In this document: in pieces, positions 9,169 to 53,915 of the stretch
Layout: each line of letters begins with the position of its first letter
Position numbering within the stretch: the first letter of the stretch is position 1
NCBI GenBank assembly: GCA_004565275.1
Contig: SDOX01000071.1
Location: 25,724 to 89,723, forward strand
Source of the DNA: Nannochloropsis salina CCMP1776
Taxonomy: Eukaryota; Sar; Eustigmatophyceae; Eustigmatales; Monodopsidaceae
Length of the DNA: 64,000 nt
Reading direction: 5' to 3'
Notes under the pieces: model-generated
What the model was told of the DNA's origin: nothing
Seen by the model: only the letters and a program-made list of their open reading frames with translations
Database searches by the model: none
Translations under genes and position numbers: made by a program

Positions 9169-10317
9169 ATGGAAAAGACTCATCGCCGTCCGAGCAGTCG
9201 GCTTTTTGGACTTAAGTCGGCAGCTATTGCTGGTTTGACGCTCATGGCTTGCTATCGACTCTTCGTAAAGACGTCCTCAACAAACATCATAAAGGATCCA
9301 AAGCCTTTGGATGATATCGAGGAGTTCCCTTTTGACGAGAAGTCCTTCACCGAAGCTTATGGCGATAGCTTCGAGCTTTTTCGTCCTTGGTACGCTATTT
9401 CGTCCGGCATACATCAGGTCCCCAAGCTTTTGGCGCCACCAGAGTCTTGGATTGAGCAATTGACCCTCAGACTTAACTATTTGGACTCCAAAGTGAGCGC
9501 AAACACTGATCGATCCGTATTGACACGTGCCAGGGCTGCTTATCTTGAGTTTATGAAGCAATACGTGTCAGGACTAGCGTATGGGCGCGAAGAGCTAAGT
9601 GTGTCATATGGTGGTGTTTTGCGTCCGTTTCAGCCTGGTAAGAGGGCACAGGGTCTGGACTGGGCTTACCTCGGTGTGACCATGACCGGCGAGCTCCGCC
9701 TTGACAATGTCAGGCTCTTGCTGGAGGACGTGGTATCTAGAAACATCCCAGGGGACTATATAGAGACCGGGGTATGGCGGGGAGGATCATCCATTTTTGC
9801 GCGTGCTGTGCTGCGGAGTCTCAATGAGGGCGGTCGAATGTCAATTGTCTGCGACTCTTTTAAGGGTCTGCCACCCGGAGAAAAGAATTTAATTCCCTCT
9901 GATCGGAATTGGAATATGAGGCCCTATCTTGAGGTGGCAACCAAAGAGGTTGCCAAAAACTTTCGAGAAGCTGGAGTACTGGACCCGAACGTTGTATTTG
10001 CTAAGGGGTTTTTCAATGAGACGATGCCTCCCTTAGCCTCTCGGATCAAGAGACTTGCTGTCATGCGTCTGGATGGAGATATGTACGAGTCTACCGTGGA
10101 CGTGCTCTATCATCTCTACGACAAGCTCAGTGTGGGAGGCTATGTGATTCTTGATGACTGGACTGGCTTTCCAGCCAAGAAAGCTTGCGAGGACTTCTTC
10201 CGTGTGCACAACATAAAGCCAGAAATCAACGACATTGATAAATTGGCAGTGTATTGGAAAAAGACGGAGGACGTTGACATACAATACTGGCGGTACGAGC
10301 AAATGAAATTCACGTAA
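9169..10317 (+). CDS. TylF/MycF-type SAM-dependent O-methyltransferase, membrane-anchored, intronless
   Basis: A single-exon 382-aa protein. Residues about 15-33 (LKSAAIAGLTLMACYRLF) form one N-terminal hydrophobic helix after a basic stretch, as in a type II signal anchor, which would place the catalytic domain in the secretory lumen. The domain has the TylF layout: GDYIETGVWRGGSSIFARAV (SAM-binding glycine-rich loop, motif I), CDSFKGLPP, AVMRLDGDMYESTVDVLYHL, and LSVGGYVILDDWTGF. The Asp residues of DGDMYES and ILDDW are those that bind Mg2+ in family members. TylF/MycF enzymes methylate sugar hydroxyls of bacterial macrolides; in this alga a surface-glycan sugar is a more likely substrate (inference). 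The gene has no introns and is visibly AT-richer than its intron-dense neighbours, which may mean horizontal origin. The start ATG follows an AT-rich leader. Confidence 0.85.
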   Translation: MEKTHRRPSSRLFGLKSAAIAGLTLMACYRLFVKTSSTNIIKDPKPLDDIEEFPFDEKSFTEAYGDSFELFRPWYAISSGIHQVPKLLAPPESWIEQLTLRLNYLDSKVSANTDRSVLTRARAAYLEFMKQYVSGLAYGREELSVSYGGVLRPFQPGKRAQGLDWAYLGVTMTGELRLDNVRLLLEDVVSRNIPGDYIETGVWRGGSSIFARAVLRSLNEGGRMSIVCDSFKGLPPGEKNLIPSDRNWNMRPYLEVATKEVAKNFREAGVLDPNVVFAKGFFNETMPPLASRIKRLAVMRLDGDMYESTVDVLYHLYDKLSVGGYVILDDWTGFPAKKACEDFFRVHNIKPEINDIDKLAVYWKKTEDVDIQYWRYEQMKFT

Positions 10318-40994: not shown

Positions 40995-41947
40995 AGAAGA
41001 CAGCTGTTCCTCTCACGGCCATACGAGAGCATCCAATAAAATGTGACATACTGTACGCTAGATTTCACAAGTTGAATATTATCCTTCATTTTCGACGGGG
41101 GAGGGGCATTGGAAAGATGAAAGCGTCAGGCAGGAATAAAGGTGCTACTTTTTCGACGGGGCCCCACGCTTTGAAAGGAAAGTAATAAAGCTAAACACGT
41201 TATTTAAGAAAATGATTTTCTCTTTACGAGGTCTCTGGCAGTATTGTTATTGAAGGATTTTTTATAACTGGAACTTTATTTCGCAAACATCGATGCCTCT
41301 TCCTTTCCTTCTTTATCAATGTCAACATGTTCTAGTTATTGTTGATATTGTGGGATTTTTGAGCACGCCATGTGTTCTCTCTTCCAAGCTATGTTGTATG
41401 GATTATCTTAAATAATTCTCGCATCAGCCATGATAATGGTACCTGAATACCCCATTTTAAAAAAAGAGAATCTTAAGAAAAGTGACCGATGAGATGTAAT
41501 TTGTTCTCATTGGTCTTATATGTAAGCAATTTTTGTGAACTTTTAGTAGAAATAAACCCTTAATCTGGAATTTTCCAAGAGAACCTTGCAATACCTGCTT
41601 TTTGGGTGCTTGATCCCCGTGGATAATATTTCTTATAAAAAGATCACAGCATACCGATAGTCAATTTGTGATGAATAGCTTCGAAGAAACCCACCAACAA
41701 AGCTATATCTTCCTTATTCGAAGTAAAAGCAAACCTAATGATGTGATTATTCCTTTGCATGCCAGCCTCGAGTTGACAATCAACGAAGATTAGGAAAGCT
41801 CATTCTTGTTATGAAAGAGCAGTAAGTGATTTACATCATGTGCTCTTGCGTCAAAATGAAGCGCTCTGCAGCAAACAACCATCCTGTCATTGTTGTGGAT
41901 GTTTGTTTTAAGTGCCTTTAAAGTGCGTTTTGTATGTGTGAGTATAA
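40995..41947. other. AT-rich intergenic spacer
   Basis: Low-GC sequence with no open frame of note and no repeat I can recognise. It separates duplication D1 from the truncated glycosyltransferase copy. Confidence 0.5.
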
Positions 41948-42650
41948 GTGTTTCACCCTCCTTCTTTTTCTTTTTTACCATCTTCTATCTGATGACTTTA
42001 CTAGCTCTATAAGAAGAGACCCTCTTGATTTGGTCGGGAAGCGAGTGATGTATTCTAAATTGCACTTCGACTTTAATAATCACATGGTGACCCTGGGTGT
42101 AGAACACCCAGAAGGATAAAATGTGTTTCGACGTGCTGAGATCTGTCTAATTCTGAGTTTCCAATGTGGTACCATTTTTTTTTTTTTCTCCAAACAGGCA
42201 AATTAGCAAACTGATTGACAATCGTAATGTGGTAAGGAATTTCATCAAGCCCCAGCCTCCGAAAGCTACTTTGACTTATTGGAGTCAGTTCTGGGCCTAT
42301 CACGTATTGACAATTCGGGCTCACGGTGGAAGGAAATTGATTCGTTACCAAGGTATGATACGAGTGGCCGCTTCCTTCGCCGTGCCAACCATCGGGCAAA
42401 TCGATGTCACGAAGAAGGCTTTTCCGCATTATCTCTTCTACATGTGCGCCGTGCTCGTCTTTGAGATAATAACAGGACTAGACTGCCACAAATACGGGAT
42501 AGAAGCCTTCATCGTGCACGACGCGTGCCAACATAGCAGCATCGGCGGGGTGGTGTGGAAATCTCTTGTACCGTGTCAAGATTTTGGCTGCGTTGAATGC
42601 AATAGACGAATGAACAGTATCGCATTGTTTGGGGAGAACAGTATGGGTCA
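41948..42650 (-). pseudogene. Truncated tandem copy of the glycosyltransferase tail and its 3' flank
   Basis: Matches about 42798-43477, that is, codons from about 780 to the stop of the 934-aa fusion gene plus about 220 bp of 3' flank. An open frame at 42429-42073 keeps KSLLRDIDLPDGWHGEGSG and RRLGLDEIPYHI but has a changed C-terminal end. Homology stops at about 42650, so the transporter, the methyltransferase and most of the glycosyltransferase are missing. It has no start of its own and is a relic of a tandem duplication of the neighbouring gene. Confidence 0.85.
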
Positions 42651-43016
42651 TATCCCATCCCTATCCCTACATTCCTATAACCAAAGATACCTAAAATCAT
42701 ATTGTACAAGCCGCTGAGATGACTTGCTGGGATTATCCTGCCATTCTTGTGCTTTTGTATTTGAATGCCTGTAAAGGGCATCTTGTAAGTGGGACTGAAA
42801 CTGTTTTATTCTTTTCTTTTCTCTTTCCCCCCCTTTCTCTATGTGATGACTTGACTGCCTCTGTAGGAAGAGGCCCTCATGATTTGGTCGTGAAGTGAGT
42901 GAAGCATTCCAAATTGCACTGCTACTTGAGTAAACGCGTTATGACTCTCGGTATGAAGTACCCAAAACGATTAAATGAGATCTGTCTAATGTTGAGTTTC
43001 CAATTTGGTGTCCTTT

Positions 43017-45821
43017 TTACGTTTTTGCCCAAACAGGCAAATTAGCAAACTCCTTGACAATCGAAATGTGGTAAGGAATTTCATCAAGCCCCAGTCTTCT
43101 AAAGCTAGGTTGACCCATTGGGGTCGTTTCAGGGCCTATGACGTATTGACAGTGCTGGCTCAGAGTGGAAGGGAATTCATTCGTTGCCAAGGTATGATAC
43201 GAATCGCCGCTTCCTTCGCCGTGCCAACCATCGGGCAGATCGATGTCGCGAAGAAGGCTTTTCCGCACAACACGTGCGTCGTTCTCGCGATAATAACAGG
43301 ACTTGACTGGCACAAATACGGGATAGAAGGCTTCATCGTACACGATGCGAGCCCACATAACAGCATCGGCGGGGTGGCCTGGAATTCTCTTGTACCGCGT
43401 CAAGATTTTCGCTGCATTGAATGCAATAGACGAATGAAAAGTATCGCATTGTTTGGGGGGGACAGTATGGCTCATACCTGTTAGGATGTCGTGTAAGACT
43501 GGCATTTCTTGATTCGAATGATTGATACACCATGTTGTTACAAACGTCGCTCCTGTTCGGATACCGTCGAGTATATTTTGAAGGTGATCAGTGTCCCATC
43601 CATCGTCATCATCCAAATGAACGATCCATTCAAATCCATCGCCAAGAGCACGATCAATTGCGTTATTCATAGCAATAGCACCAGCATTATACCAAAGTTC
43701 AGTCCCAGTAAGTTTTCCACGCTCCCCAGGCTCTGGGAGATTGTACATCTGAACGCGAGAATCGTCAAAGAAGGATAGTGACTTCCACTCCGTTTCATCA
43801 TCGTAATGATCCGCTGTCATGTAGAGCTTCCAGTTACGGTAAGACTGCTGCTGAAGCATCTTCCAGAGTCGCTCCAATATAGGCGGAGTGGATCCATCGG
43901 GGCGTCGATAAGTTGCGACTGCCACACACAGCACTGGCGTGGAGCGCTCCAATCCAGGAGTGAGTAGGGGAGAGAAACTGAACTTTCCCGGTTTTTGGAA
44001 AATGAACTCATTAATGAAAGAAGCATTGACTTGTGGGTGAATACCATGAATGTTCTGTGGACTCCCAATTGGGATGAGATCAGTAGATTTTGCAATGTTA
44101 TCCACTGCCCCTCTCACAGCTCCGCTGTACTGCCAATCCAAATAATCGTCAAACACCATAAAACCTCCTGGGCGTAAGAGATCGACTGTATTATCATAGT
44201 CAGCCCATACACCTTTTGCTGAATGATCTCCGTCGATGAAGATAATGTCGAATGTTTCTCCAACAGGGAGAGCTACCGGCGAGAAGCCGACATGAAGATC
44301 CCAGGGCCTAGTCAGGTTACAGAGGGAATTGGGCACTATGGAGGCAAGATTTTTCCGAATAGTAGACTCTTGATCCAAAGAACCCCCGAAATGCTCAGTC
44401 GAAAGGACACAAGGGTCAACGAGAGTTGCATACGTCGGGAAAGGATGACTCAGCATAAAGGCGGAGGAAATTCCGGTATAGCTGCCAATTTCAAGGTACT
44501 TTGCTGGACGGTTTCCGAGGTGAGATCGCAAGTCGTACAAAATGTGCGTTGCATCGTGAAAGCTTCGCTCCTGAATTCTCTCCTGAATAGATCTCAACAC
44601 AGAAAGGGCCGTTTCTGTTGAATTCCAATCCGACGGAAACAAGTCAGTCTCCACGGGCAAGGGCTTCAGACTCCCTTGCAAATCATTTTGCCTCTCCATT
44701 ATAGAGACGCGATAGAGCACTACCATGACACAGATCATAAAGTAGTAGTAAGAACGATGTGGCTCTGCAGGGCACCGCGGGAGCTGATTGGAAAAGAAGT
44801 AGACAGCAGCAACGGTAGCAAACGCGCACACATTGAACAGTGGGGTGATGGACGTCCCGAACAAAAACGTACTCGCAACCGTAGAGAGCAGCACGCTGAT
44901 ACCAATGGCAAGTCCTTTCAATACATTGTCAGCGTACTTGATGACAGCAGATACGAGAAGACCCCCGCCAGAGAAGAGTAAAACTTGACACCACACCAAA
45001 GGAGTAAATCCATACAAAAAAGGCGAATTTTTGCCTGATTCTTCACTTTTCTGGAAAAAAAAATCACCTCTACCAATCATTTGCAGAAGGAGGATGACAA
45101 CGGAGCAGAAGGCTAATTGAATGTTACGCATCCAAATGGTTGGCGAATCTTTGATTTCTGTCTTGAGAATTTTTTCGAAATAGACTCCTGCGAAAGCACT
45201 CATCAGGCAGGAAAGAGTCACAGCAATGAGACCGATGATTAATGGCTCGTTGCTTACCACGAAGAAAATGTGGGCATTACTTTTTGTTGGAGCATCGGTG
45301 ACTTTCTTTTCCTCGAGCGTGACGAGGGCTACGCTCATGAAAATAATGACCAGACATGCCCATTGTCGAGACGAATAATGACGCCCCAAAACCAATACGC
45401 TCACGACTGCCGTAACTATAAGCTTGGTTTGAACCATAACTTGGAATATCGGGACGGAGAGATTGGAAATGGCCACGTACAACAACGTGTTGGACGCCCA
45501 GTAGAATACGGCAGGAACCGATATCCTGAGCAGATCATGAGGACGACCGTAAAGCCGTTCCTTGAGAGTTTTGAAGCCCTTTCGGGTAATAGCGCGAGGT
45601 AGTGTTTGTGTTCGAAAACTTGCTGCGAATTCAAGAAGGACGCTTATCACGAGCTTCATAAGTTCGCTGACGAGAATGAATTGACCAATGTCATATAAGT
45701 TGTCCTTGTCGACGGCTTGGCGCGTGAAATGACCCAGTAACGCAGTCAAGGTGTTCTGAAGGACCAAAATAGTCAAGAGCATTACTTCAAATGAGAAGGG
45801 CATCTTTCTTGCTTCAAACAA
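43017..45821 (-). CDS. Three-domain fusion: nucleotide-sugar transporter - SAM methyltransferase - family 2-like glycosyltransferase
   Basis: One uninterrupted 934-codon frame. Residues 1-346 form an SLC35A-type Golgi nucleotide-sugar transporter with its signatures FAGVYFEKILK (210-220), MRNIQLAF (231-238) and GGLLVSAVIKYADNVLKGLA (286-305). An extra hydrophobic helix, YYYFMICVMVVLYRVSI (358-374), follows. Residues about 405-610 are a class I methyltransferase: KYLEIGSYTGISSAF (motif I, 441-455), FDIIFIDGDHSAKGVW (524-539), LLRPGGFMVFDDY (548-560). Residues about 627-860 are a GT-A glycosyltransferase: PVLCVAVATYRRPDG (629-643), GTELWYNAGAIAMNNAIDRA (706-725), and the DXD-type metal site IVHLDDDDGWDTDHL (733-747). 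SLC35A carriers exchange cytosolic UDP- or CMP-sugars into the Golgi; the fused enzymes could add and methylate the imported sugar. Ten carrier helices plus the eleventh would place both enzymes in the lumen (inference). The gene is intronless and AT-rich. The start may be Met1 or Met7. I know of no natural protein with this order. Confidence 0.88.
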   Translation of the reverse strand: MFEARKMPFSFEVMLLTILVLQNTLTALLGHFTRQAVDKDNLYDIGQFILVSELMKLVISVLLEFAASFRTQTLPRAITRKGFKTLKERLYGRPHDLLRISVPAVFYWASNTLLYVAISNLSVPIFQVMVQTKLIVTAVVSVLVLGRHYSSRQWACLVIIFMSVALVTLEEKKVTDAPTKSNAHIFFVVSNEPLIIGLIAVTLSCLMSAFAGVYFEKILKTEIKDSPTIWMRNIQLAFCSVVILLLQMIGRGDFFFQKSEESGKNSPFLYGFTPLVWCQVLLFSGGGLLVSAVIKYADNVLKGLAIGISVLLSTVASTFLFGTSITPLFNVCAFATVAAVYFFSNQLPRCPAEPHRSYYYFMICVMVVLYRVSIMERQNDLQGSLKPLPVETDLFPSDWNSTETALSVLRSIQERIQERSFHDATHILYDLRSHLGNRPAKYLEIGSYTGISSAFMLSHPFPTYATLVDPCVLSTEHFGGSLDQESTIRKNLASIVPNSLCNLTRPWDLHVGFSPVALPVGETFDIIFIDGDHSAKGVWADYDNTVDLLRPGGFMVFDDYLDWQYSGAVRGAVDNIAKSTDLIPIGSPQNIHGIHPQVNASFINEFIFQKPGKFSFSPLLTPGLERSTPVLCVAVATYRRPDGSTPPILERLWKMLQQQSYRNWKLYMTADHYDDETEWKSLSFFDDSRVQMYNLPEPGERGKLTGTELWYNAGAIAMNNAIDRALGDGFEWIVHLDDDDGWDTDHLQNILDGIRTGATFVTTWCINHSNQEMPVLHDILTGMSHTVPPKQCDTFHSSIAFNAAKILTRYKRIPGHPADAVMWARIVYDEAFYPVFVPVKSCYYRENDARVVRKSLLRDIDLPDGWHGEGSGDSYHTLATNEFPSTLSQHCQYVIGPETTPMGQPSFRRLGLDEIPYHISIVKEFANLPVWAKT

Positions 45822-46822: not shown

Positions 46823-47034
46823 AAAGCAATGTTACTTACAGTTGGCATCAAGTGTGCTCCTACCTCGTATATAGTCCTCAAAGGGCTTGTAGTAGGCAGC
46901 GCGGGAGGTGTCACGCTAGATTGCCTTGAATCTGCCCGTATCGATATGATGGTCACTACGAACAATGTCCATGTAGGCAGTACATTTGATATAGGACTGG
47001 CACATGTAATCTGGACGTTATATGATCATATCAC

Positions 47035-47476
47035 CTCTCCATATTTGTTTTTAAAACACTTGGCCTTTTGGTCTACAACCTTTGCTCTTCATGAGCTAAC
47101 CTTTTGACAGACCGCAATAACAAATTCATTCCTGTAGATGTCTCTGCTTGTTATTCTATCTTGATAATTAAGAGAGGAGCTGCTTTGCATGTATGACCAA
47201 CTCCACGAAAACTAGATAGACGAGGAACCATACCTCAACAAAATTAAGAGTCAAGATTCTGCATATCAATTCATTTTGTCTCATCTGGTCTCTTTGTCGG
47301 CTTTCAAAGAGCAATTGAGGTTGTCATGGAAGATGTAGGTGGCTGTGTTCACTACATTCCGTCTCCGTTTTTTTTTCAGTCAAGGTAGTTGGGTTGGATC
47401 ATTTACTGGCTGTTTCAAAGAAAGCACAGCATCATCCGTGGCAAATGTATAAATTGTCGTAATTGAAGATGTGGAT
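47035..47476 (+). repeat. Direct repeat R2, left copy, containing a remnant of the aminotransferase gene tail
   Basis: About 440 bp that recur at 49720-50170 in the same orientation and almost identical. Near 47143 it contains a decayed version of the last codons of the 47889-49676 gene (compare GTCTCTGCTTG..CATTC, AAGAGAGGAGCTGCTT and ACCAACTCCACGAAAACTAG with the true gene end). Confidence 0.9.
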
Positions 47477-47888
47477 GGTCGTTTCTAGGCAGTAGGCTAT
47501 CAGCGCAAGTGTGTAGACAGTGTACTATTCCTATGTAGGTCATCATGCTATCCGTACAAAATAAGCTACCAGTGCAATACAGGCTATTCCCACAATGCAC
47601 CGATAACCTGTTTTGCGCTGAAAACAATAAGGATGAGGGACAAGTTCTATTACTTAGTGAGCGGTACTCCTATCATTATGTTGGCTTAATAAGAAGGGTG
47701 TGTTGTGTATTATACAATCAGTAATATATTCACAGCTCAATAATATAATATTCGTGTTCAAAAATCATAGCGATAAGATCCTGATCCTAATATATTAATG
47801 TCATGCGATCCATTCAGGTGCCGAGGTAGCTTACATTGCCGTAATAGCTTGTTTCGCCGAGATAGGACATCGCCGCATCGTCATTGTC
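47477..47888. other. Promoter region of the acyltransferase-aminotransferase gene
   Basis: AT-rich sequence between direct repeat R2 and the start of the 595-aa gene. No clear motif is seen. Confidence 0.4.
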
Positions 47889-49676
47889 ATGTCAAGGACT
47901 AATGCTACAAGTTTGATAATCCCACGGCCTACTTCAAGGGTGGCAGTCCTTCGCGGTGGCGGCCGTCATGCAGCTGTTGTTTGGGAGCAAATTGCAAGTG
48001 GATATGAGGACGTAAGAGTGTGGGATGATTCCAAGAACGATGCCGACCTGCACCCCCTCCTACGGGGTCTCCCCAGATTCGATCCAAACAGTTACAACAT
48101 TGACACAAATTATGGCCATAGCCTTTCTTCGATTGATTGTTTCGTCGCAGTAGGCTCTCCAAGTGTTCGCAAAAAGCTTGTCGAAAGTGTTGAGAACGCA
48201 TCGCTTCCATCAGTCTTTTTTCCAACAGTCATCCACAAGACAGCTGTCATTACAGACACTACTCAAATTGGAATCGGTTGTTTCATCGGACCTCAAGCCT
48301 TGGTGAATACCAGCGCAATCGTTGGTAAATTTTGCCTCATCAATTCGGCTGCGATTGTCGAGCACGATTGTCGGTTGGGAGACTATGCGACTCTCAATCC
48401 AGGTGCTATGCTCTTGGGAAGTGTTATCATGGAGAGTTTGGCCACACTGGGCGCAAATGCAGCAGTACGAGAGAATCGTACCATAATGACCGGAGCCACT
48501 GTCGGAATGGGTGCTGCCGTTGTGCGAGACGTTGACGGACCCCTTTACGGCTTCTGGGGTGGCGTACCCGCCAGGCCCATTACCAGAACGATTGTCAGCG
48601 ATGATGGGCACCGAATTCGATGGTGTGTTAAAAAGTTATTTTCAATGGACCGATATGCTCAGTATCTGCATCGCAGTCTTGTAAAGGGACATCTCACTAA
48701 CGATGGACCGCTGCAGTCCGTTTTACATTCCAAGGTCAAGAATTTAGTTCGATCCAATCGCGATGTATTACTGGCTTCAAATGGAACTTCAGCACTCCAT
48801 GCACTCGCGGCGGGACTTGAATTACGAAAGGGAAGACATCTAAGATGGGTGACACAGGCCTTCACCTTCCCTTCCTCAATTCAGGGACCACTATCAGATG
48901 CCTTCGTGTGTGACATCGACGCCAATCTATACGGGCCCTGCATTCAATTTCTCAATGAGAGAAAAGCAGATTTTGATGGAGTTATCGTCACAAATTGCTT
49001 TGGATATCAGACGGAGATTCTCGCGTATGAGAAATGGTGCATTCGGAATGACAAATTCCTGATTTTCGACAATGCCGCCACTCCTTTGGGATTTGTCGAA
49101 GATGGCCGTTGCATTCACGATGTTGGAGATGGTGCCTTTATCAGCTTTCACGAGACAAAACCATTTGGTCGCGGCGAGGGAGGGGCCATATTTACAGGGA
49201 AAGACATTGCCCCTTTTGTTCATCAAGCGATGAATTTTGGATATGATATACCCAATCAGGTTCGTATTCCAAACCGTTATTCAAGCAATTGGAGAATGTC
49301 CGATTTCGCTGCTGCGGCGATTTGTGATCACATTGATCAAATCATTTCTGAAAAGTGGGAAGATAAGCTCAATGCTCTTACCCGTTTTTCAGCTGAAGAG
49401 CTTGGAAAAAAAGGATACCGGATGGCATTTCAAGTGTGCTATCCAACCATACTGAGTTGCCTGTTTGTGGATTTAGGCAATCAATCTGGTGAAGCCACTT
49501 GTCGGCAGCTGAATTCTCATGGGACTGAGGCAAAGCATTATTATCGTCCTCTTATCGATAGAACTGCAGCTCCCCGAGCTTGGGGACTTTACGATAGAAG
49601 TCTCTGCTTGCCATTCCATATTGGGATATCAAGAGAGGAGCTGCTTCGCATGTTCGACCAACTCCCCAAAAACTAA
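47889..49676 (+). CDS. PglD-like sugar N-acyltransferase fused to a DegT/WecE-type nucleotide-sugar aminotransferase
   Basis: An intronless 595-aa protein. Residues about 15-235 match the PglD/NeuD acyltransferase type: a Rossmann-like start (SRVAVLRGGGRHAAVVWEQI), SIDCFVAVGSPSVRKKLVE, then a left-handed beta-helix (VIHKTAVITDTTQIGIGCFI). INSAAIVEHDCRLGDY carries the expected catalytic His159, and GFWGGVPARPI closes the helix. Residues about 280-595 are a DegT/DnrJ/EryC1 aminotransferase: LLASNGTSALHALAAGL (PLP phosphate loop), VTQAFTFPSS, LIFDNAATPLGF (Asp pairing with the PLP ring nitrogen), and SFHETKPFGRGEGGAIF with the Schiff-base Lys424. These activities together turn a keto-sugar nucleotide into an N-acylated amino-deoxy sugar, as in bacterial O-antigen, pilin or S-layer glycans. 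The fusion, bacterial flavour and lack of introns suggest horizontal origin. The gene lies between two R2 repeats and diverges from the transporter-glycosyltransferase fusion. Sugar position and acyl group cannot be read from sequence. Confidence 0.88.
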   Translation: MSRTNATSLIIPRPTSRVAVLRGGGRHAAVVWEQIASGYEDVRVWDDSKNDADLHPLLRGLPRFDPNSYNIDTNYGHSLSSIDCFVAVGSPSVRKKLVESVENASLPSVFFPTVIHKTAVITDTTQIGIGCFIGPQALVNTSAIVGKFCLINSAAIVEHDCRLGDYATLNPGAMLLGSVIMESLATLGANAAVRENRTIMTGATVGMGAAVVRDVDGPLYGFWGGVPARPITRTIVSDDGHRIRWCVKKLFSMDRYAQYLHRSLVKGHLTNDGPLQSVLHSKVKNLVRSNRDVLLASNGTSALHALAAGLELRKGRHLRWVTQAFTFPSSIQGPLSDAFVCDIDANLYGPCIQFLNERKADFDGVIVTNCFGYQTEILAYEKWCIRNDKFLIFDNAATPLGFVEDGRCIHDVGDGAFISFHETKPFGRGEGGAIFTGKDIAPFVHQAMNFGYDIPNQVRIPNRYSSNWRMSDFAAAAICDHIDQIISEKWEDKLNALTRFSAEELGKKGYRMAFQVCYPTILSCLFVDLGNQSGEATCRQLNSHGTEAKHYYRPLIDRTAAPRAWGLYDRSLCLPFHIGISREELLRMFDQLPKN

Positions 49677-49719
49677 AGCTCCAAGATTGTCCAGACATAT
49701 ATTATTTATGATTGCACAC

Positions 49720-50170
49720 ATCTCCATATTTGTTTTTAAAACACTTGGCCTTTTGGTCTACAACCTTTGCTCTTGAGCTACACTTATGACAGACCGCAAT
49801 AAAAAAATCATTCCTGTAGATGTCTCTGCTTGCCATTCTATCTAAGATTCAAGATGAAATTAAGAGAGGAGCTGCTTTGCATGTATGACCAACTCCACGA
49901 AAACTAGATAGACGAGGAACCATACCTCAACAAAATTAAGAGTCAAGATTCTGCATATCAATTCATTTTGTCTCATCAGGTCTCTTTGTCGGCTTTCAAA
50001 GAGCAATTGAGGTTGTCATGGAAGATGTAGGTGGCTGTGTTCACTACATTCCGTCTCCGTTTTTTTTTCAGTCAAGGTAGTTGGGTTGGATCATTTACTG
50101 GCTGTTTCAAAGAAAGCACAGCATCATCCGTGGCAAATAGTATAAATTGTCGTGATTGAAGATGTGGGTG
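49720..50170 (+). repeat. Direct repeat R2, right copy
   Basis: Second copy of the 440-bp repeat, beginning 44 bp after the aminotransferase stop codon. Like the left copy it contains a decayed gene-tail remnant (near 49820), so the true gene end is followed by a second relic end. Confidence 0.9.
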
Positions 50171-52739: not shown

Positions 52740-53915
52740 ATTTCTTTGAAATTGCTTCTTAGAAATCATCGATCATAGGTCTGGAATTACTAGCGATTAT
52801 TAAGTCGTCTACGTATAAGACGATTACCAGTATTTCATCATTAAATCCAAACTTTACATGTAAGCATGGATCCGCAGAAGAAGGGTGGAACCATATCCCC
52901 GAAACCATCCATCAATCTTCTTGTGCCAGTTTCGTCCAGATTGCTTCAGGCCATATAATGACTTATGCAATCGAAAAACTAGCTCTTCCGCATTTGGTCC
53001 ATGCTGCTCGTATCCAGGTGGCTGCTTGGTGTATATCTTTTCTTCAAGGTCTGATTGAAGATAAGCTGTGTCTACATCCATATTATCCAGTTTTCAGTCC
53101 AGAATGCTTGCTAAAGCCAATATTAAACGAATCATGGTCATCGATGCAACCGGTGCATAAGTGTGAATGTAGTCATACCCAAACTCCTGACTATAGCCTT
53201 TGGCAATAAATCTTGCCTTTCTTCTCACGATAAAGCCATTTTGATCTCGTTTATCCGTTTCAACCCAGCCACTCGAGATGCATCGTTCTCCTTTTGGTAA
53301 CGGAGTTAATTCCCAGGTACCGTTCTTCATGTGGGCCTGGTACTCTGCATCTTTGGCTTTCTTCCTTTCAGCTTGCACCTCACTCTCATCTTCCGTGTGA
53401 TGAAAGTCCTCATTGACAATTTCTGAGGCTGCAGCGAAGGCTAAATTACCTCCCGTAGTTGCAAACTCATCATCCATTTGATGACGTTCACGTGCTTTCG
53501 TCTTGCTACGTGTACGTCCCATATTATTCATATTTCGATTAATCTCATCCGTGTCTTTCCATCCTGTTGCCCCCACTTGCGGCTGATCCTCCCTGACATG
53601 ATCAATCCTGCGATCATCAGGTCGATCATCTTGATGTACCCCATCTTCGATATCATCATCATCCTCACTTGTATCGGTAGGTGGTACCTCATCCTCCTGA
53701 TGAGCCCCCACTGTCTTCATATAATCCCTATCATTTTCTTCTTCATTATGATAAGGATCACTTCTAGTGATCGGTTGCCTCTGCTTCGTTGGGAATATCT
53801 CCTCATCAAACGTAACGTGACCAGATTTGACGTATTTCTCAATAGAAGGCATATAAATTCGATATCATTTAGAATTGTTCCCTACGTCATCATATCCAAT
53901 CATGATTACTTCTAG
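52740..53915 (-). mobile_element. Ty1/copia pol fragment, inverted (fossil)
   Basis: Minus-strand remains of a copia polyprotein: the end of integrase with a hydrophilic linker, then reverse transcriptase (ARFIAKGYSQEFGYDYIHTY, MDVDTAYLQSDLEEKIY, RLHKSLYGLKQSGRNWHKKI, and the YVDD box region). Protease, most of integrase, RNase H and a matching LTR are absent. Broken, with several breaks; its right end abuts duplication D1. Confidence 0.85.

Follow-up and report, generated by a model that had tools for sequence, protein, structure and literature searches.

A single reading frame for a nucleotide-sugar transporter, a methyltransferase and a glycosyltransferase, beside a candidate amino-sugar gene, in Nannochloropsis salina

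The fusion gene and its three genomic copies

We analyzed a 64,000-nucleotide stretch of DNA from Nannochloropsis salina CCMP1776 (hereafter, the window). The region of interest forms an island of low GC content in which retroelement-like frames occur. The following features were assigned, with positions given along the window.

43017..45803, minus strand: fusion gene for an SLC35A-type transporter, a methyltransferase (MT) and a GT2 glycosyltransferase (GT), 928 aa plus stop (Pfam, frame)
44775..45803, minus strand: nucleotide-sugar transporter, PF04142, residues 1-343 (Pfam; 6oh2 alignment)
44622..44774, minus strand: linker, residues 344-394, with an extra hydrophobic segment at ~351-369, a possible eleventh membrane helix (hydropathy, weak)
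43959..44621, minus strand: class I SAM methyltransferase (Methyltransf_24), residues 395-615, with D524, H527 and D553 (Pfam; MycE spacing)
43275..43958, minus strand: GT2 glycosyltransferase, residues 616-843, with the acidic run D731-D734 (Pfam; alignment)
43020..43274, minus strand: C-terminal extension past the GT, residues 844-928 (alignment with two phage GTs)
42184..42654, minus strand: remnant of a duplication of the fusion gene's 3' end, covering the GT C-terminus, with one stop, 78% identical
47889..49676, plus strand: divergent partner gene, 595 aa, a second fusion, head-to-head with the fusion gene
47889-48593, plus strand: N-terminal part of the partner, VioB/PglD-like N-acetyltransferase
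48594-49673, plus strand: C-terminal part of the partner, L136-type sugar aminotransferase

The first-pass annotation had described one intronless frame of 934 codons. The frame is indeed single and intronless, and the count of 934 starts from a TTG at 45821; counted from the ATG at 45803, the protein has 928 aa. The motifs quoted in that annotation were found in the fusion protein, and the domain search that it proposed placed all three parts above the Pfam gathering scores: PF04142 at residues 4-337 (E 6e-74; 249 bits vs 27; profile positions 4-314 of 315 covered), Methyltransf_24 (PF13578) at residues 437-554 (E 3e-14; 54 bits vs 26), and Glycos_transf_2 (PF00535) at residues 627-764 (E 8e-7; 29.5 bits vs 23.3). 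As read from the sequence, the three-domain architecture is near certain.

Each part retained recognizable signatures. The best solved relative of the transporter part was the CMP-sialic acid transporter 6oh2 (E 3e-41), and alignment with 6oh2 and SLC35A genes of the same genome showed that the 6oh2 motifs FAGVYFEK and K-Y-x-D-x-x-x-K are kept. In the MT part, D524, H527 (+3) and D553 (+29) match, by spacing alone, D275, H278 and D304 of MycE (PMC10117803), as for a metal-dependent sugar O-methyltransferase, and their columns were invariant in 19 aligned rows. An 11-row alignment of the acidic, metal-binding GT motif showed D112 and D115 (first-row numbering) to be invariant and D114 nearly so. 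The C-terminal extension could not be clearly matched to any part of the two phage GTs in its alignment.

Full-length copies were detected on two other contigs (C74:11807-14599 and C76:47338-50133), with open frames 962 and 948 aa long, 89% identity to the window copy (C80) and no stops; in the C76 copy, an in-frame stop and the start ATG are only two codons apart. A local assembly error had been named in advance as an observation that would undo the fusion. Such an error is unlikely, since the frame occurs three times in the genome, and the two further unbroken copies on other contigs led us to reject a chance frame as well. The window copy differs from the C74 and C76 copies by 196 and 202 bases. 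When these differences were placed at random, the frame stayed stop-free in 0.3% of 1000 trials for each pair, and in 5.1% of trials for the closer C74-C76 pair. The highest simulated protein identities of the three pairs (0.874, 0.871 and 0.940) were below those observed (0.890, 0.888 and 0.950). Every gap in the three-way DNA alignment was a multiple of three, and one of 39 bases probably reflects differing gene ends. The dN/dS of the whole gene was 0.35-0.40, and the point estimates by part were all below 1 (MT, 0.19-0.21; GT, 0.14-0.35; transporter, 0.38-0.47). The neutral simulation was rejected for the whole fusion gene, which shows purifying selection on it.

It is very improbable that the frame is something other than one functional protein, that is, a decaying or chimeric gene or one from which internal initiation or cleavage yields separate parts. 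The GT-end remnant next to the fusion gene, the stops and large insertion in one partner copy, the retroelement-like surroundings and a merely moderate overall dN/dS would fit such a reading, but three unbroken frames, gaps that are in-frame only and the rejection of neutrality for the whole gene argue against it.

The divergent partner gene and the donor sugar

The partner gene, which the first-pass annotation had not taken into account, sits divergently beside all three fusion copies; it is intact in two and broken in one by stops and a large insertion. Its aminotransferase half matched mimivirus L136 with an E of 6e-45, the next aminotransferase chain being at 3e-11. In a profile search, L136 (E 4e-79, profile positions 7-357) supplied the sole solved chains below the limit of 1e-20. 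This half looks able to act as the L136-type enzyme of mimivirus viosamine synthesis, with UDP-4-amino-4,6-dideoxyglucose as the predicted product. The acetyltransferase half was closest to VioB (1e-21), and its other nearest solved relatives were pilin/PglD-type acetyltransferases. It scored 144.2 bits against the NeuD/PglB/VioB family TIGR03570, below the NCBIfam cut-off of 160.8, and is accordingly filed as an enzyme that may work like this family and not as a member. A 446-base direct repeat flanks the partner gene. It was set aside as an LTR pair: part of it resembles the partner 3' end (repeat positions 104-183 match 49595-49675 at 83%), and no wide repetition of it was found.

For the preceding step, a host 4,6-dehydratase exon (C70:484191-484898) had mimivirus R141 as its second-best solved relative (6vlo, 2e-41). 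When scored exon by exon, no dehydratase candidate in the genome reached the TIGR01181 cut-off of 365 bits, the best exon, that on C70, scoring 179.5.

Mimivirus makes 2-O-methyl-Vio4NAc with R141, L136, L142 and the proposed R132 (PMC9614988, PMC10117803). The N. salina locus resembles that pathway, as set out in the passages cited, in its L136-type aminotransferase and VioB/PglD-like acetyltransferase, in the fusion of the acetyltransferase to another pathway enzyme, and in the proposal of an MT and a GT2 for the same sugar. It differs in how the parts are joined. Mimivirus L142 combines the acetyltransferase with a putative GT, whereas here the acetyltransferase is joined to the aminotransferase and the MT-GT pair to a membrane transporter; the passages cited describe the mimivirus pathway without a transporter.

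A viosamine-type donor is suggested by the neighboring gene. An unlikely alternative keeps the architecture and topology preferred below and assigns a sugar other than viosamine: an ordinary UDP-sugar, or some different amino or deoxy sugar carried on UDP or dTDP. The partner would then belong to another pathway. Relatedness alone cannot give substrate choice, and L136 accepts both UDP and dTDP sugars (PMC9614988). The NCBIfam matches of the aminotransferase half were scattered among numerous kinds of sugar aminotransferase, and no score came close to the respective cut-off. The transporter part shares 33% and 38% identity with two SLC35A genes of the same genome, so its substrate is not fixed by relatedness, which counts against the viosamine reading. 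Several points speak against another sugar. L136 is far ahead of other solved aminotransferases, and VioB leads the acetyltransferases. In viral contigs, relatives of the two partner enzymes accompany this GT subfamily and, in part, the MT, and each of the three fusion copies has the partner at its side.

Viral and prokaryotic relatives

Judged by its sequence relatives, the GT subfamily is found mainly in viral contigs and is nearly absent from the prokaryote genomes scanned. One GT relative was found among 116 pattern matches in prokaryote genome contigs vs 89 in viral contigs; the two scans used slightly different second patterns and a pattern pre-filter, and their counts do not give a rate. 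From the 89 relatives, 80 loci were kept. Neighborhoods were tallied as raw counts over 83 loci, all picked by a GT match, which fell into 51 clusters at ungapped identity >90%; L122 among them is bacterial, and L016 and L017 are named phage records. An MT lay within 60 bases upstream of the GT in 15 clusters and downstream in 6, and was fused to it in 1 (IMG/VR locus L146). A DegT gene was adjacent in 6, and neither an MT nor a DegT gene in 23. At least 186 relatives of the MT family were found in viral contigs; MT-GT adjacency is perhaps less telling because this family is so widespread among viruses. The 20 records searched for a terminase were our own choice.

Relatives of the four enzyme parts co-occur in IMG/VR viral contigs (for example, loci L146, L139, L142, L034 and L042) and in the phage record LR756501, two or three at once and occasionally fused, and no examined locus had all four. 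The MT-GT fusion at L146 has the same order as the window gene. These viral loci differ from the window in that no transporter relative was found there, and their MT and GT are ~25-38% identical to the window protein. In the viral contigs, the full fusion protein had no relative among 2 pattern matches and the transporter alignment none among 46. A viral origin of the whole fusion was set aside on these grounds. In a GT tree (quick method, 64 rows), the three copies formed a long branch without a close viral sister. A search of the N. salina genome for a giant-virus capsid family gave no match, nor did its control, which makes this negative uninformative.

A prokaryote donor was not supported either, as scans of genome contigs and plasmids gave few or low-identity relatives. 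The aminotransferase had no relative among 52 pattern matches in prokaryote genome contigs. On plasmids, the MT-GT half matched only methyltransferases, in 12 Rhizobium records, and the partner matched 99 records at low identity. One of these covered 93% of the partner at 26% identity, the match spanning adjacent acetyltransferase and aminotransferase genes. Gene pairs of this kind, at 26-27% identity, were likewise seen in bacteria and archaea.

Membrane topology and the proposed pathway

Whether the MT and GT face the lumen or the cytosol would depend on the extra hydrophobic segment of the linker, which is weak. In the C80 region, its hydropathy was reached by 49% (KD) and 74% (GES) of 2000 shuffles, and on the GES scale it was not the most hydrophobic stretch past the transporter in two of the three copies. 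The CMP-sialic acid transporter of the mouse is a ten-helix protein with both ends in the cytosol (PMC9368800); without an eleventh helix, the MT and GT would therefore be cytosolic. The same fusion and sugar, with a ten-helix transporter that serves as an anchor or nucleotide carrier and an MT and GT that act in the cytosol on a nucleotide sugar or a lipid-linked acceptor, is quite unlikely in our estimate. Besides the marginal segment and the mouse precedent, SAM supply speaks for it: SAM is present in the cytosol, its luminal supply is unproven, and the need of a luminal MT for SAM import counts against the preferred reading. MFS_5 genes, which we take to be linked to Golgi SAM transport, are present in the genome. 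Against a cytosolic location, an aromatic/aliphatic stretch of the linker is kept in all three copies, K/R residues on its transporter-proximal flank outnumber those on the other in two of them (2:3, 3:1 and 3:1), and N-x-S/T sequons are common to the three at residues 394, 496 and 593 (raw occurrence). Nor is there an obvious gain for a Golgi transporter in being coupled to a GT that works in the cytosol. We infer a luminal placement of the MT and GT.

SLC35A transporters associate with GTs in the Golgi (PMC9368800, PMC6453868). The fusion protein resembles these complexes in its PF04142 domain and in the partnering of transporter and GT. The complexes are described in the passages cited as non-covalent and made of separate proteins, whereas here one frame also carries a methyltransferase, with a GT2 of bacterial/viral type. 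Among the literature matches listed, there was no report of a natural transporter-MT-GT fusion. The first-pass annotation likewise knew of no natural single chain of this kind. The enzyme half is not unique, as MT-GT neighbors and one MT-GT fusion occur in viral contigs. Another single chain that pairs these enzyme types is PBCV-1 A064R, whose GT families differ from that of the window protein. A064R has two GT domains using UDP-rhamnose and an O-methyltransferase (PMC9614988). It likewise combines GT and SAM methyltransferase within a single polypeptide, and the terminal sugar is methylated there. The gene is viral, its MT is the third, C-terminal domain, and no transporter is among the three domains described in the passage cited.

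Donor import, transfer and methylation would be the most economical reading of the fusion, and the neighboring gene and the fusion together suggest that an exotic decoration of the cell surface is made by a two-gene route. In our preferred explanation, a eukaryotic Golgi/ER nucleotide-sugar transporter became joined to an MT-GT pair of a type now mainly viral. UDP-4-keto-6-deoxyglucose would be supplied by a host 4,6-dehydratase, and the partner protein would aminate and N-acetylate it in the cytosol to UDP-4-acetamido-4,6-dideoxyglucose (Vio4NAc) or a close isomer. The fusion protein would then move this donor across the Golgi/ER membrane, its GT domain would attach the sugar to a luminal glycan, and the MT domain would O-methylate the sugar before or after transfer. 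We give about an even chance to a two-gene pathway that makes, imports, transfers and O-methylates UDP-4-acetamido-4,6-dideoxyglucose, in which the sugar identity and the order and coupling of the steps are deduced. Several of the results above count against it: the acetyltransferase and dehydratase scores below their cut-offs, the viral loci with at most three of the four enzyme parts, the abundance of the MT family in viruses, the long GT branch, and the acetyltransferase-aminotransferase neighbors of bacteria and archaea. A bolder version is a tentative possibility: a eukaryote may reuse virus-type amino-sugar genes as a two-gene capping machine, one fusion making UDP-Vio4NAc in the cytosol and the other importing it, passing it on within the Golgi lumen from the transporter to the GT of the same chain and methylating it, so that 2-O-methyl-Vio4NAc, the sugar on mimivirus fibrils, would stand on the cell surface.

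A natural covalent transporter-GT pair would make substrate hand-over testable within one protein, the known Golgi pairings being described, in the passages cited, as non-covalent. If the sugar is of the viosamine type, a eukaryote would make, with genes related mainly to viral ones, a decoration that the passages cited assign to bacteria and giant viruses. This would matter for questions of virus-protist gene exchange and of how surface sugars come to be shared between host and virus.

A transporter, a methyltransferase and a glycosyltransferase in one frame

We examined the minus-strand frame at window 43017-45821, which the first-pass annotation had described as a natural fusion of a nucleotide-sugar transporter, a methyltransferase (MT) and a glycosyltransferase (GT). 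The frame and its motifs were present as described, and all three claimed domains were found by domain search, each above the Pfam gathering score. The listed start is TTG; an ATG six codons further gives a protein of 928 aa. The domains and the further full-length copies in the same genome (G000; 26.5 Mb, 103 contigs, in which genes match exon by exon) are as follows.

Fusion gene: domains and additional copies
Residues 4-337, nucleotide-sugar transporter (PF04142, 249 bits)
Residues 437-554, MT (Methyltransf_24, 54 bits)
Residues 627-764, GT (Glycos_transf_2, 29.5 bits)
C74:11807-14599, second full-length copy, 89% identical to the window copy, no stops
C76:47338-50133, third full-length copy, 89% identical to the window copy, no stops

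The nearest solved structure to the transporter part was a CMP-sialic acid transporter (6oh2, E 3e-41). D524, H527 and D553 of the MT domain have the Asp-His-Asp spacing given for MycE, and these three columns were invariant across 19 aligned rows. The predicted three-domain architecture is well supported. No natural transporter-GT fusion was reported in titles or abstract openings among the matches listed from the open-licence literature.

A GT-end fragment with one stop adjoins the window copy (on C80). Three other SLC35A genes (on C56, C55 and C6) matched the fusion query in the transporter part only, and the two that were aligned showed 33% and 38% identity to its transporter; the SLC35A family had no match in any of 14 prokaryote control genomes. 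The size of the genome, the exon-by-exon matches and the SLC35A genes mark the host as a eukaryote, and the first-pass annotation places it among the algae as a eustigmatophyte. Among the three fusion copies, point estimates of dN/dS were 0.35-0.40 for the whole gene, 0.38-0.47 for the transporter, 0.19-0.21 for MT, 0.14-0.35 for GT, 0.40-0.59 for the C-terminal part and 0.18-0.63 for the linker. When the changes observed between each copy pair were scattered randomly (1000 trials per pair), the mean number of stops was ~6 in the two wider pairs and ~3 in the closest pair; trials free of stops made up 0.3%, 0.3% and 5.1%, respectively, and the observed protein identity was reached in no trial of any pair. 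Every gap in the alignment of the copies was a multiple of three. Together, these results indicate that selection keeps the whole frame, which by itself does not prove one single protein. The three-domain gene, with its three copies kept by selection, is real.

The partner gene and the genomic setting

The fusion gene is arranged head to head with a second composite gene.

47889-49676 (+), partner gene, 595 aa, hexapeptide N-acetyltransferase joined to a DegT-type aminotransferase

Against PDB, the aminotransferase half matched mimivirus L136 at E 6e-45 (next aminotransferase, 3e-11) and the acetyltransferase half matched VioB at 1e-21. A profile of the aminotransferase half and a phage relative matched L136 at 4e-79 and nothing else below the 1e-20 limit set. 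The acetyltransferase scored 144 bits, below the NCBIfam NeuD/PglB/VioB cut-off of 161, and is therefore termed VioB-like rather than a VioB. All three fusion copies have the partner alongside. The C80 and C74 partners are intact and 95% identical, and the C76 one is fragmented, with stops and a gap of ~5.7 kb. The partner is informative, and a two-gene amino-sugar module is a well-supported reading of the paired sequences.

GC was 37-48% in all 13 one-kilobase windows at 41-54 kb and at least 50% in 41 of the 51 remaining ones. GC3 was 0.49-0.51 in the three fusion copies. Of eight comparison sequences, five had 0.65-0.80 and three, namely two multi-domain glycan genes and the TylF-type gene of the window, had 0.40-0.54. 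The following were also observed (retroelement-like frames judged by eye).

Further features of the window and genome
41000-54000, low-GC island in which both fusion genes lie along with remnants of genes and retroelement-like frames
53094-53852 (-), Ty1/copia-polyprotein-like frame
41881-42652 and 42735-43476, direct repeat pair in which the 3' end of the fusion gene recurs in degraded form
47032-47477 and 49717-50170, direct repeat pair, in part like the partner gene's 3' end
L012:1424-5434 (+), copia-retroelement-like frames in the gap of the C76 partner
9169-10317 (+), TylF-type O-methyltransferase (Pfam E 7e-69)
C80:94792-96612 and C80:97678-99438 (L205), GT2- and GT92-family genes (Pfam), right of the window
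L204:843-4058 (-) on C65, 1072 aa, NAD-dependent epimerase joined to exostosin GT47; a stretch at the N-terminus looks hydrophobic by eye
C72:5991-6944, epimerase match in a frame similar in length to that of L204
L019:1240-3375 (C3), epimerase joined to a TOD1/MUCI70 glycosyltransferase-like domain; C3 carries three further epimerase-matching frames (592-728 aa)

The direct repeats next to the two fusion genes are perhaps leftovers of unequal recombination. By its domain matches, the C65 frame likewise combines a sugar-nucleotide enzyme with a glycosyltransferase.

Viral relatives and the mimivirus viosamine route

A GT-alignment scan gave 89 relatives from 213 pattern matches in viral contigs, of which 80 loci were taken further, and one from 116 in prokaryote genomes. 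Viruses commonly carry members of the MT family (at least 186 relatives among 599 pattern matches), and none of 46 pattern matches in viral contigs was a transporter relative. A Terminase_6N match, indicating tailed phages, occurred in 9 of 20 hand-chosen viral records, 8 over the cut-off; several of the others were short fragments. When 83 GT-bearing loci were grouped into 51 clusters, MT lay within 60 bases upstream of GT in 15, downstream in 6 and fused in 1; an aminotransferase adjoined GT in 6, and neither was adjacent in 23. GT, an L136-type aminotransferase and MT are consecutive in a 735-kb phage record, whose aminotransferase is 35% identical to the partner's, compared with 26-27% for adjacent acetyltransferase and aminotransferase genes on bacterial and archaeal plasmids. 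Pfam shows MT and GT fused in viral frame L146:7386-8717, in the domain order of the fusion gene, and the acetyltransferase is joined to MT in viral locus L139 and to GT in viral locus L142. Viral frames of 759, 772 and 1054 aa (L142, 7371-9650; L147, 8004-10322; L191, 6450-9614) contain a GT of the same subfamily. All four enzyme parts together were found at no locus among those searched. In the GT tree, the GTs of the fusion copies sit on a long branch. In the simplest history, a virus-type set of these enzymes would have entered this genome and then been rebuilt as two fusions, one of which acquired a eukaryotic transporter.

In mimivirus, R141 is described as dehydrating UDP-glucose before amination by L136; the N-terminal domain of the L142 protein acetylates the product to UDP-Vio4NAc (Vio4NAc, 4-acetamido-4,6-dideoxyglucose), a putative GT forms its C-terminal domain, and R132 has been proposed as the enzyme that methylates O-2 (PMC9614988, PMC10117803). 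The best solved relatives of a dehydratase exon in the host genome (C70:484191-484898) were 6bi4 (2e-42) and R141 (6vlo, 2e-41); with each exon scored singly, none of the dehydratase candidates in this genome reached the NCBIfam cut-off. Among the matches listed from the open-licence literature, those on Nannochloropsis glycans included, no title or abstract opening reported viosamine or a transporter-GT fusion protein in an alga.

Membrane side of the enzyme domains

The mouse CMP-sialic acid transporter is described as having ten helices with both termini cytosolic (PMC9368800). The fusion protein has an extra aromatic and aliphatic stretch at residues 351-369, a weak candidate for an eleventh helix that could take MT and GT into the lumen. 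Its best KD means were 1.54 (C80), 1.65 (C74) and 1.47 (C76), and when the part of the C80 sequence that follows the transporter was shuffled 2000 times, an equally hydrophobic stretch arose in 984 (KD) and 1471 (GES) of the shuffles. By GES, a stretch within the MT domain outscored it in two of the three copies. K/R ratios around it, transporter side to enzyme side, were 2:3, 3:1 and 3:1. Sequons at 394, 496 and 593 are common to all three copies, a count made without a null. The lumen is favored mainly as the side on which joining a transporter to GT is most plausible. SAM would be required there by a luminal MT. MFS_5 genes exist in this genome, and we take MFS_5 to be the MOT2/GoSAMT family. 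In plants, that family is described as a putative Golgi SAM importer (PMC10397214). The identity of the sugar, the membrane side of MT and GT (the lumen being preferred) and the hand-over of the donor from transporter to GT are hypotheses within reach of ordinary assays.
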